Assembly: GCA_944324915.1 (NCBI GenBank)
Contig: CALUYD010000002.1
Span: forward strand, 1-64,000
From: Candidatus Gastranaerophilales bacterium
GTDB lineage: Bacteria > Cyanobacteriota > Vampirovibrionia > Gastranaerophilales > Gastranaerophilaceae
DNA: 64,000 nt
Reading direction: 5' to 3'
Positions 4,392 to 55,910 of the stretch are shown here, one piece after another. Made by a program: the position numbers and the translations under genes. A model generated the notes under the pieces. It worked only from the letters and a program-made list of their open reading frames with translations. It was not told where the DNA came from and made no database searches. How positions within the stretch are numbered: position 1 is the first letter of the stretch; each line of letters begins with the position of its first letter.

Positions 4392-4967
4392 TTAATTATC
4401 AAAAGGTACAAAATTTAAACCGCTATCTAAAATGCCTTTTTCTTTAAATAATATCCATATTCCGCAAAAACCGCTTAGATTTTCAGCTCTATTTTTATAT
4501 GAATGATATTTATCGCCAACTGCAATTAAACAAGGTAGGTCAGGAGGACAATTTTTTTCATAAGTTTCATTTAAAAATTCGTCCTCTTTTTGCCTATATT
4601 TTTCCCATTCTTTTTGAGAATTTAATAGTAGATGATATTGTTTTTTAGAAATTAAATATTTTGCAGCTTCAAGCGACCTATTTATTTCGATTTTATATTT
4701 TTCAATTCCTTTAAGGCAACATTGCATCATATCATAATCAGTTTCATAATTGGTATCCAAGCATTCTTGAACATCTTTATCAATTTTTTTAAGCTCATCT
4801 TGAGAAGCAAAATCCGCCTTTGAAAAATCAATTTCAACCTGATATGGATATTTTAAATTTAAATAAATATTTTCAATTATTTCTTTAATTGAATTACGAA
4901 CTTGCGTAAATGATAATGGAACTATGTAAATAAGAGCAATAATTGTAATTATGATAAATTTTTTCAT
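4392..4967 (-). CDS. LprI-like (DUF1311) exported protein
   Basis: 191 aa with an N-terminal hydrophobic signal or anchor (IIITIIALIYIVPLSF). Residues 60-140 have the LprI/DUF1311 layout: spaced cysteines (VQECLD, QCCLKG), then a helical stretch with QKEWEKYRQKEDEF, the family's W-x-x-(Y/F)-R signature. Family members are periplasmic or surface helical proteins; some inhibit host lysozyme. Two further cysteines (NCPPDLPC) and one near the end (SGFCGIW) may form disulfides. The assignment rests on pattern, not close similarity. It is convergent with the gene at 3869. Confidence 0.6.
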   Translation of the reverse strand: MKKFIIITIIALIYIVPLSFTQVRNSIKEIIENIYLNLKYPYQVEIDFSKADFASQDELKKIDKDVQECLDTNYETDYDMMQCCLKGIEKYKIEINRSLEAAKYLISKKQYHLLLNSQKEWEKYRQKEDEFLNETYEKNCPPDLPCLIAVGDKYHSYKNRAENLSGFCGIWILFKEKGILDSGLNFVPFDN

Positions 4968-5008: not shown

Positions 5009-5068
5009 TTACTTTCTATACCAAGGTTTAAATTCTTCAATTTCATCAAGTATTTTTTTGGTGAACAT
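5009..5068 (-). pseudogene. Remnant of a HAD phosphatase gene (C-terminal 19 codons)
   Basis: Reading leftward, the frame from an ATG at 5068 gives MFTKKILDEIEEFKPWYRK and a stop. The end matches the C-terminus of the intact HAD protein at 24752-25099 (LLEEIKNFKPWYRK), and the DNA around the stop (TACTTTCTATACCAAGGTTT) is identical in both. The rest of the gene is gone. AAAGG lies 8 nt before the ATG, so a 19-residue peptide could still be made, but I read this as a decayed copy. As with the intact copy, it lies next to and divergent from a short XRE gene. Confidence 0.7.
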
Positions 5069-5084
5069 AAGATTAACCTTTCTA

Positions 5085-5142
5085 TTTTTTGCACGCATGC
5101 AAAAAATAATCAAATAATAGCATTAAAATTGCATATATGCAA
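5085..5142 (+). promoter_or_regulatory. Two palindromic operators upstream of XRE gene
   Basis: TTGCACGCATGCAA (5089-5102, extended by flanking A/T runs to 5085-5106) and TTGCATATATGCAA (5129-5142) share the form TTGCA-N4-TGCAA. Their centres are 40 bp apart, close to four helical turns. The second is a perfect palindrome covering the ATG of the XRE gene at 5137. This is the arrangement expected for autorepression by a dimeric repressor with looping or cooperative binding. Confidence 0.65.
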
Positions 5143-5349
5143 AGCAATGAATTACAAAAACTAGGCAATCATATAAAGAAACTCCGAAAAGAAAGAAAGC
5201 TAACAATTAGCGCTTTATGCTATAAAAATGGGCTTGAACCTTCTACAATAAGCAGAATAGAAAAAGGTCAAATAGAACCTAAATATCTTACATTAATGAA
5301 TATTGCCAAAGTCTTTGATTTATCAATAGCTGAATTTTTAAATTTTTAA
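5137..5349 (+). CDS. XRE-family transcriptional regulator, 70 aa
   Basis: A stand-alone helix-turn-helix of the Cro/cI type with nothing after the DNA-binding domain. Helices read LGNHIKKLRKERK, ISALCYKNG and PSTISRIEKGQIEP, ending FDLSIAEFLNF. The ATG lies inside the second of two matching palindromes, and no Shine-Dalgarno is seen; TAAAAT at 5124-5129 would start the mRNA almost at the ATG. The last 48 nt are nearly identical to those of the XRE gene at 5700. It probably represses itself and perhaps the leftward remnant gene. Confidence 0.85.
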   Translation: MQSNELQKLGNHIKKLRKERKLTISALCYKNGLEPSTISRIEKGQIEPKYLTLMNIAKVFDLSIAEFLNF

Positions 5350-5508
5350 ATCATCACATTTCCTCAATTCAATTATAAAATTATTTCCGTTCATAATGTG
5401 TAATGAATTATAACATGAATATATTGCATTTTGCACTAAAAATTTAAGTGTATAAATAGGGTATATAAATAATCAAAAATTGCACTTAATATAAAGAGTG
5501 AGGTGAAT

Positions 5509-5670
5509 ATGTTTAAAGTCGAAAAAACGGAAATGACAAATAAAACATTCAGATTACCTTTAAAATTAGTGCAAGAATTACAAACAATAGCACAAAATAA
5601 AGGGGTATCTCTTAATAATTTAGTGCAACAATGTTGCGAATATGCCATTAAACATTTAGATAAAAATTAA
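5509..5670 (+). CDS. Ribbon-helix-helix (Arc/CopG-like) protein, 53 aa
   Basis: A small gene, MFKVEKTEMTNKTFRLPLKL onward. NKTFRLPLKLVQELQTIAQNKGVSLNNLVQQCCEYAI matches the Arc/MetJ fold: a short strand (KTFRLP) that dimerises and reads DNA, then two helices with the typical G-V-S-L-N-N-L-V turn. GAGG ends 5 nt before the ATG. Two TTGCACT boxes, each followed by an AGTG about 8-9 nt later, lie upstream (5431-5450 and 5480-5500) and may be its operators. It sits between two XRE genes. No toxin partner is adjacent, so an antitoxin role is not shown. Confidence 0.75.
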   Translation: MFKVEKTEMTNKTFRLPLKLVQELQTIAQNKGVSLNNLVQQCCEYAIKHLDKN

Positions 5671-5699: not shown

Positions 5700-5912
5700 A
5701 TGGATAAATTATTATTACAAAAATTAGCAAACCGTATAAAAGAGTTAAGAAAATTGCACAAATATACTCAAGACGATTTAGCTGATTTAGCCCAAATTGC
5801 ACGCTCAACCTTGGGTAATATTGAAACCGCACAAAACGATATAACATTCTCAAAATTAAATAAAATTGCCAAAGCCTTTAATTTATCACTAGCTGAATTT
5901 TTAAATTTTTAA
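5700..5912 (+). CDS. XRE-family transcriptional regulator, 70 aa
   Basis: A single Cro/cI helix-turn-helix: LANRIKELRKLHKYTQDDLADLAQIARSTLGNIETAQ, ending AFNLSLAEFLNF. It is the same size as the XRE protein at 5137 and shares its C-terminus nearly base for base (5865-5912 against 5302-5349, three differences), while the N-terminal halves are diverged. No clear ribosome binding site is present; the start follows TAACAATTT. Targets are unknown. Together with 5137 and 5509 it forms a small regulator cluster that looks acquired or duplicated. Confidence 0.85.
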   Translation: MDKLLLQKLANRIKELRKLHKYTQDDLADLAQIARSTLGNIETAQNDITFSKLNKIAKAFNLSLAEFLNF

Positions 5913-24751: not shown

Positions 24752-25099
24752 TTACTTTCTATACCAAGGTTTAAAATTTTTAATTTCTTCAAGCAAATTA
24801 TTATAATCTCCGCAAAAATTTATGCATCTATCATCAACAAACAAATAGCATAATTCTTTTCTGTCTGTAACATCGATTATAATATCATCGAGTTTTTCTT
24901 TTATAATCCATCTTGAAGCAAGGATTTTATTTCTCGTTGTAAAAAGTTTGATATTAAAATTTTTTGATAGTTCATATAGAAATTCCTTTGCACCACCTTT
25001 GATTGAGGGAATTTCATTGATATTAAAATCACCTTTGTAATTGTTTAATACACCATCGAGGTCTATTAGTATTGTTTTTTTGTTTAAAGTATTTGTCAA
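24752..25099 (-). CDS. HAD-superfamily phosphatase-like protein, 115 aa
   Basis: ILIDLDGVLNN is HAD motif I (DxDxV) and KLFTTRN is motif II (T). The Lys of motif III is not obvious, and LFVDDRCIN is motif IV (DD). The protein is short, without a cap domain, and ends FKPWYRK, a tail seen in small HAD proteins of phages and Firmicutes. No ATG precedes motif I. The TTG at 25099 (MTNTLNKKTILI) is the shortest sensible start; the frame stays open to 25141. It is divergent from an XRE gene with tandem operator-like repeats between. A decayed second copy lies at 5009-5068. Confidence 0.75.
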   Translation of the reverse strand: MTNTLNKKTILIDLDGVLNNYKGDFNINEIPSIKGGAKEFLYELSKNFNIKLFTTRNKILASRWIIKEKLDDIIIDVTDRKELCYLFVDDRCINFCGDYNNLLEEIKNFKPWYRK

Positions 25100-25120
25100 A
25101 CCTATAATTAACCACCCTAA

Positions 25121-25163
25121 TAAGCGTGTCAGTCTATACAAATTATAAGCGTATCAGTCTATA
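25121..25163 (+). promoter_or_regulatory. Direct-repeat operators between HAD and XRE genes
   Basis: An 18-nt sequence occurs twice, TAAGCGTGTCAGTCTATA at 25121-25138 and the same with A for G at position 8 at 25146-25163, 25 bp apart. They fill the divergent intergenic region, so the XRE protein probably binds both and controls both genes. Confidence 0.6.
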
Positions 25164-25172
25164 TTGTCAAAT

Positions 25173-25391
25173 ATGAGCACAAGATTTTTAGCAAAACTTG
25201 GTTTAAATTTGAAAAAATACAGACTTGAAAAAGGTCTGACACAGGAAAATTTAGCTGAAAAAGTCGGAATTCATCCAACTTATGTCGGTAAATTGGAAGG
25301 TGGAAAAAATAATCCGTCAACAAAAATGCTCTATAAAATAACACGTGCTTTGGGAATTAAATTATCTGATTTATTCGATTTTGATAAATAA
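25173..25391 (+). CDS. XRE-family transcriptional regulator, 72 aa
   Basis: A single Cro/cI helix-turn-helix (LGLNLKKYRLEKGLTQENLAEKVGIHPTYVGKLEGGKNNPST) ending GIKLSDLFDFDK. The ATG at 25173 is preferred over an in-frame TTG at 25164. It is divergent from the HAD gene, with two direct repeats between them, which suggests autoregulation and control of the HAD gene. A terminator follows, shared with metG. Confidence 0.87.
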   Translation: MSTRFLAKLGLNLKKYRLEKGLTQENLAEKVGIHPTYVGKLEGGKNNPSTKMLYKITRALGIKLSDLFDFDK

Positions 25392-43454: not shown

Positions 43455-43667
43455 TTAATCAAAAAAGCTCTTAATATCAATTTCAAAAAATTTAGCCAAA
43501 TTATAGAGTGTTTCTGTATTAGCTAAGTTTTTTCCTCTTTCAATGCAAGAGATATGTTCTCTTGACATATTAACATATTCGGCAAGTTTTTCTTGACTTA
43601 AGCCCTTTTCAAGTCTTAGAGATTTTAATTTCTTACCTATGTTGTTTTTTAGCTTGCGAATGCCCAT
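43455..43667 (-). CDS. XRE-family transcriptional regulator, 70 aa
   Basis: A single Cro/cI helix-turn-helix: IGKKLKSLRLEKGLSQEKLAEYVNMSREHISCIERGKNLANTETLYNLAKFFEIDIKSFFD. Two 16-bp palindromes of the form GTAATAT-N2-ATATTAC lie 17 bp apart just upstream of its ATG, so it almost surely represses itself. It borders the polysaccharide locus on the left and reads away from it. The operator pair lies between it and the first glycosyltransferase gene, so it could also affect that locus, though 213 nt separate the operator from 43930. Confidence 0.88.
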   Translation of the reverse strand: MGIRKLKNNIGKKLKSLRLEKGLSQEKLAEYVNMSREHISCIERGKNLANTETLYNLAKFFEIDIKSFFD

Positions 43668-55691: not shown

Positions 55692-55910
55692 TTATTCAAA
55701 GAAGCTTTTTACGGGTACATTAAAATATTGTGCTAGTTCAATTAATTTTTTTAGGCTAATATATCTTTCAAATCTTTCAACATGCCCTATAAATTTGCTA
55801 TTGGTATTTAATATTTCTGACAATTTTTCTTGCGAAATGTTGTGCGCAAGTCTTAATTTTCTTACATTTTTGCCAATAGTTATATAAGTTTCATCTTGAA
55901 TGCTTGACAT
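55692..55910 (-). CDS. XRE-family transcriptional regulator, 72 aa
   Basis: A single Cro/cI helix-turn-helix: IGKNVRKLRLAHNISQEKLSEILNTNSKFIGHVERFERYISLKKLIELAQYFNVPVKSFFE. Unusually the recognition end reads GHVERFERYIS, with an aromatic residue where most members have G or K. It stands between the deiminase-like gene and the aldolase, all on the minus strand. No clear operator palindrome is visible upstream, only TTATAA repeated 12 nt apart. Confidence 0.85.
   Translation of the reverse strand: MSSIQDETYITIGKNVRKLRLAHNISQEKLSEILNTNSKFIGHVERFERYISLKKLIELAQYFNVPVKSFFE

Follow-up and report, generated by a model that had tools for sequence, protein, structure and literature searches.

Within a 64,000-nucleotide stretch of a Candidatus Gastranaerophilales genome (hereafter, the window), a gene for a short XRE-family regulator stands divergently from a reading frame of only 19 codons, related to a complete gene for a small HAD protein located elsewhere in the same stretch. 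The question that this locus raises is what kind of genetic unit loses its enzyme gene in this way, and what the regulator left behind may be doing. Our best explanation, which we consider probable though well short of certain, is that the site at 5009 is a decayed copy of a module dispersed in Gastranaerophilales, consisting of two divergent genes, one for a HAD phosphatase and one for a short repressor, in which the HAD would be costly when unrepressed. This supports the preliminary description of the window overall, and the pattern proved larger than the window showed. All data are sequences from assembled, mostly metagenomic genomes, and it is at this level that the anatomy of the module, its conserved catalytic residues, its linkage, empty sites, repressor exchange and one-sided decay are documented below.

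Two copies in the window and two elsewhere in the genome

As the preliminary description had noted, the divergent HAD/XRE pair occurs twice in the window, at 5009-5349 and 24752-25391. The features of the first site and its neighbours are as follows.

5009..5068, minus strand: HAD remnant, a complete 19-codon ORF (MFTKKILDEIEEFKPWYRK) with an in-frame internal deletion, retaining codons 1-7 and the last 12
5089..5102, no strand: candidate operator 1, TTGCACGCATGCAA, of the form TTGCA-N4-TGCAA, conserved in the MQSNELQKLG XRE subfamily
5114..5143, minus strand: promoter-like site toward the HAD remnant, TTTGCA-18-TATTAT, 9/12; weak, such sites being about as numerous as expected from shuffles
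5129..5142, no strand: candidate operator 2, TTGCATATATGCAA, shared in part with the -35-like hexamer and with the start of the XRE gene
5137..5349, plus strand: XRE-family HTH protein of 70 aa, MQSNELQKLG subfamily (HTH_3 E 2.6e-11), the retained putative repressor
5503..5670, plus strand: small RHH/Arc-like protein, between two XRE genes; same cluster in G011
5700..5912, plus strand: second XRE-family protein of 70 aa, MDKLLLQ subfamily; its HAD partner is missing here and intact in G010

The remnant is a 60-nt ORF, MFTKKIL followed by DEIEEFKPWYRK, which has kept its own ATG and stop, and whose in-frame internal deletion was revealed by comparison with an intact copy at C1:232457 of the same genome. 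Thus, the 19-codon remnant reported previously is real, but it does not represent the last 19 codons of the HAD gene; rather, it joins the first seven to the last 12. Its 3' end is 90% identical to the intact HAD of the window over 42 bp (E 7e-10) and 98% identical to the C1 HAD over 44 bp, and its best alignment remains with this HAD family rather than with another one. Palindromes of the form TTGCA-N4-TGCAA have two matches in the 64 kb, namely, the two candidate operators. The adjoining XRE gene shows a dN of 0.006 and a dS of 0.13 against its G013 orthologue.

Beside the HAD remnant lies a gene for an LprI-like secreted protein (4392-4967), and genes with a start related to it come after the HAD in C1 and in G010, possibly as travelling cargo. 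Further upstream, the window has an orphan gene for a DUF6471-like small protein (193-405, a weak match), a kind of protein that, in other genomes, faces the HAD in place of the XRE; its 1-200 flank showed no HAD remnant.

The second site has the same arrangement with a full-length HAD gene.

24752..25099, minus strand: intact putative HAD phosphatase of 115 aa, probable TTG start, with catalytic Asp, Asp, Thr, Lys and Asp-Asp present
25121..25138, no strand: candidate operator repeat 1, TAAGCGTGTCAGTCTATA
25146..25163, no strand: candidate operator repeat 2, TAAGCGTATCAGTCTATA
25142..25170, minus strand: consensus sigma-70 promoter toward the HAD, TTGACA-17-TATAAT, overlapping operator repeat 2
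25173..25391, plus strand: XRE-family HTH protein of 72 aa from an ATG (start inferred), MSTRFLAKLG subfamily (HTH_3 E 9.4e-18), putative cognate repressor

The promoter is the sole perfect TTGACA-17-TATAAT match in the window (0.11 expected), and the TTG at 25099, from which the HAD probably starts, lies downstream of it. The spacer carries two TAAGCGTRTCAGTCTATA repeats, 25 bp apart, which are the two matches to this motif in the 64 kb, where none is expected. Membership of the XRE/Cro-type HTH family is given by HTH_3 scores of 43.8, 56.1 and 64.4 bits, all above the cut-off of 23. Two further XRE genes of the window, at 43461-43643 and 55698-55877, have no adjoining HAD.

Searches of the genome itself (G000) raised the number of HAD sites from the two first described to four: intact genes in the window (24752) and at C1:232457, and 19-codon remnants in the window (5009) and at C21:1414. 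A 21-bp tail, CTTTCTATACCAAGGTTTAAA, is found in this genome at these four HAD sites only. The C1 copy (L002) has its own divergent XRE, and the C21 remnant (L008, C21:1414-1471), with the same 19-codon product as that of the window, adjoins a different XRE of 105 aa.

The HAD enzyme and its divergent regulator

Alignment of 20 diverse members of the HAD family showed that D7, D9, T48, K75, D83 and D84 are invariant, in agreement with the DxD, T/S, K and DD motifs of HAD superfamily phosphatases in a Rossmann-like core; all Pfam matches of the protein fall below cut-off. Its dN/dS ranges from 0 to about 0.26. An AF2 model (pLDDT 94.6) has HAD phosphatases as its top PDB matches, the best Foldseek matches being KDO8P/KDN9P-type sugar-phosphate phosphatases, SCP-type phosphatases and T4 Pnkp, with no PDB match below E 1e-3; viral Foldseek matches include proteins named 5'-nucleotidase. 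A sequence search of the PDB with the HAD profile returned chance matches and a weak match to 1xpj only. Judging from these motifs and models, the HAD appears to be a small, cap-less and catalytically complete phosphatase. It resembles the cap-less phosphatases KDO8P/KDN9P, SCP/CTD and the T4 Pnkp 3'-phosphatase in its HAD core, its Asp nucleophile and the lack of a large cap, with weak Foldseek matches, but it differs from them in being about 110 aa long and in having no solved-structure match below the E value above. A nucleotide or nucleic-acid phosphate is our best guess for its substrate. Export of the enzyme was set aside, as a signal-like leader was present in only 5 out of 134 distinct ORFs. 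The DD motif of two full-length HADs (L260 and L323) has a natural Asp-to-Asn substitution, and these two are probably inactive.

The family is present in 24 of the 28 genomes of the genus, and in 172 of 286 genomes and 35 of 50 genera of the order, with up to 12 copies per genome; across the sampled phylum it is almost confined to the family Gastranaerophilaceae. A divergent XRE gene was found within 500 bp of 36 of the 40 intact HADs of the genus, beside 69 of 80 HADs in named contigs and beside 51 out of 58 HADs of an additional sample, the three samples overlapping, whereas about 1% would be expected from the local density of XRE genes in the loci around HADs. HAD homologues mostly lacking such a neighbour, which would have spoken against the unit, are thus not what was found. 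Among the four exceptions in the genus, two are SNase-HAD operons with a divergent XRE, a third has a small AbrB-like gene, judged by eye from its sequence and with no Pfam match, and the last (1 of the 40) has nothing recognisable as a regulator beside the HAD. Five loci of the wider set have, instead of the XRE, a small divergent protein of the DUF6471-like or ParG-like type. DUF6471-like partners, with matches below the Pfam cut-off, were seen in two loci and a similar protein in a third; a ParG-like RHH protein is a further partner. A few HADs are placed after a peroxiredoxin gene, without an XRE; that these persist indicates that the HAD is not always harmful when unrepressed.

It is conceivable, albeit unlikely, that the HAD is simply an accessory enzyme under local repression, in nucleotide salvage for example, and that nothing more than genome flux lies behind the scatter and decay. 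The SNase-HAD operon with a divergent XRE in G012, the peroxiredoxin-linked HADs and the few signal-peptide-like leaders fit such a role, which does not account for up to 12 copies per genome, for exchange among unrelated repressors or for one-sided loss of the HAD. The operon in question, an XRE gene divergent to genes for a secreted SNase-like nuclease and a HAD (L090 and L091, 4034-5476), occurs twice in that one genome, and SNase-HAD operons hint at nucleic-acid phosphate as the substrate.

The type of repressor is freely exchanged from copy to copy. First, among 69 HAD pairs at least 85% identical, the XREs were less than 50% identical in 43. Second, the HADs of G000, G010 and G018, which are identical as proteins, stand opposite XREs only 26-40% identical. 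Third, two modules lie in tandem on one contig (L097); their HADs are identical, and their XREs share 35% identity. Spacers vary along with the XRE, and in many XRE subgroups the spacer contains a repeated or palindromic motif of its own, that is, candidate operators. The combination of identical HADs with unrelated XREs speaks for a regulator acting on DNA and not through binding of the HAD, and we infer from these sequences that the XRE would be a repressor of this kind.

The same observations bear on a type II toxin-antitoxin system, in which the HAD would be a toxin neutralised by direct binding of an XRE that also autoregulates. XRE-antitoxin modules such as RelE-Xre, DUF397-Xre and GNAT-Xre (PMC2701414) are likewise multi-copy, patchily distributed units of two small genes with an XRE-type regulator, mobile without a transposase of their own and with exchanged regulator families; XRE-, RHH- and AbrB-type partners also serve as antitoxins there. 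However, the HAD and XRE genes are divergent in the large majority of loci, and therefore neither form a single operon nor are co-transcribed; the XREs, of about 70 aa, are mostly just the HTH domain; and specific protein neutralisation, in which toxin and antitoxin co-evolve as binding partners, would not readily allow identical HADs to pair with XREs 26-40% identical or even with other DNA-binding folds. We thus regard this alternative as quite improbable. The words 'haloacid' and 'phosphatase' are absent from the text of that survey (PMC2701414), and our literature searches found no description of a HAD-XRE module. Abundant as it is in a little-studied gut lineage within the cyanobacterial phylum, the module is apparently undescribed. 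If our reading is true, enzyme neutralisation and transcriptional repression, which are combined in toxin-antitoxin modules, are separated here.

The strongest rival, which we deem possible but not the likely answer, is anti-phage defence, with the XRE, or a partner protein, releasing the HAD on infection and the phosphatase blocking phage growth. HAD phosphatases occur in validated systems such as DS-9, where their role is unknown (PMC13092281), and like the HAD of DS-9 and of other HAD-containing defence systems, the one described here belongs to a mobile accessory locus; the module is also patchy and tightly linked to a regulator. DS-9 differs in pairing its HAD with a metallophosphatase, no XRE partner being mentioned in the text (PMC13092281). 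Against a defence role, the HAD has no match in PADLOC, which gives generic HTH matches only for the XRE, and the modules stand alone between housekeeping genes, with no trigger sensor visible; NCBIfam likewise has no match for the HAD.

Mobility of the module

The preliminary description had proposed a small mobile or selfish module, and its mobility is supported by empty sites, by multiple scattered copies and by a block shared between two species. G014 and G016 lack the module (about 720 bp) at a DUF1957 site, and G015 lacks 743 bp at a U32 peptidase site, its flanks there being directly joined. In G019, the XRE-HAD pair occurs by itself at another site, with 90% identity. Moreover, contig C21 of this genome and C2 of G018, from two species, share a 3.8-kb block that is 95-100% identical over nearly all its length and has sharp ends, which at the sequence level is a recent transfer. 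The main difference inside this block is a deletion of about 275 bp in the HAD of G000; since the block is otherwise near-identical, the loss of the C21 HAD must be recent. That the module is also selfish is plausible.

The module loci yielded no integrase, transposase or terminal repeat, and no terminal inverted repeats with a short target duplication were seen by eye at two empty sites. A direct repeat of about 64 bp flanks the C21 module upstream of sulP (L008:1350-1413 and 1960-2024) and is also present in G018; found so far at that site only, it may be a trace of insertion.

These loci also bear on a further suggestion of the preliminary description, that the pair could be a phage-derived lysogeny fragment, and on the related reading of a fragment from a conjugative element. 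The XREs resemble phage repressors, the second XRE gene (5700..5912) is followed after 26 bp by a tRNA-Arg gene, and weak phage relatives of the HAD exist. Nevertheless, the retrieved modules are located between ordinary chromosomal genes, with no other phage gene noticed; the empty sites indicate that only about 0.7 kb was inserted; and matches were confined to three phage records and two viral contigs, the latter at about 50% identity, with none in the plasmid collection. The suggestion thus found little support, and we hold it to be very unlikely.

Proposed mode of action and loss of the HAD gene

On the reading of a dispersed HAD phosphatase-repressor module, the XRE would bind the paired candidate sites around the HAD promoter and keep the HAD off. 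The enzyme, costly when unrepressed, would act chiefly upon arrival of the module in a cell that lacks the repressor in question, or once repression is lifted. A change of repressor would then favour spread of the module, since an incoming module with a new repressor would not be silenced by the resident ones, and HAD-less copies would leave an XRE able to silence incoming modules of the same type. Phage immunity regions show a comparable logic of a divergent repressor, paired operators and exchangeable specificity, with many specificities per gene set. The module shares with them the divergent repressor, the candidate paired operators and the many specificities, but it lacks phage functions and would control a single enzyme. 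It is tempting to speculate, and we offer this tentatively as a doubtful extension, that the module is a selfish or immunity-like element, a lone phosphatase spreading by repressor change, whose HAD-less, repressor-only copies silence arrivals of the same specificity, with repressor groups coexisting in each lineage. If our main reading, that of a repressor-controlled phosphatase module, is true, one enzyme with many repressors and many gutted copies constitutes a natural series for tracing, among close relatives, how repressors become incompatible and how a costly gene is lost.

Gutted copies are frequent. In the 28 genomes we found 12 HAD remnants away from contig ends, namely, the window and C21 in G000, G001:C3, G008:C7, G009:C6 and C8, G010:C1, G011:C13, G013:C57, G017:C45, and G027:C28 and C14; partial HADs at contig ends (G005:C82, G011:C44, G027:C17, G027:C1, G016:C22, G007 and G027:C12) were left out as assembly breaks. 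An intact divergent XRE is kept at 11 of these 12, as anticipated by the earlier proposal that the module can lose its enzyme and yet retain the repressor; at the remaining one (G008:C7) the XRE is truncated as well. Since XRE genes decay slowly and recent remnants would keep their XRE anyway, this asymmetry is suggestive only.

Most remnants are internal deletions in which both HAD ends are kept, and one deletion junction is common to G010 and G013, at different sites. Alternatively, the 19-codon ORF would be a functional peptide and not a remnant: this genome encodes the same product twice, in different flanking contexts, and of the seven distinct junctions five preserve the reading frame (p = 0.045). 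Yet this count was made post hoc, versions that are out of frame persist as well (G010, G013 and G008), and one event copied between loci would account for the pair. The in-frame excess is too weak to claim a peptide function for the remnants, an alternative that we judge highly improbable. The two G000 remnants differ at the junction, which reads ACTCTT at C21 and ATACTT in the window, the former carrying the local C of the G018 allele.

In G027 (L191:2438-2960), a HAD gene is broken after its first codons by a repeat with a palindrome-like TTCAGGATGAC/TGCTGAACTTG sequence, and sequences of this type are also present near other modules (L008 and L106).
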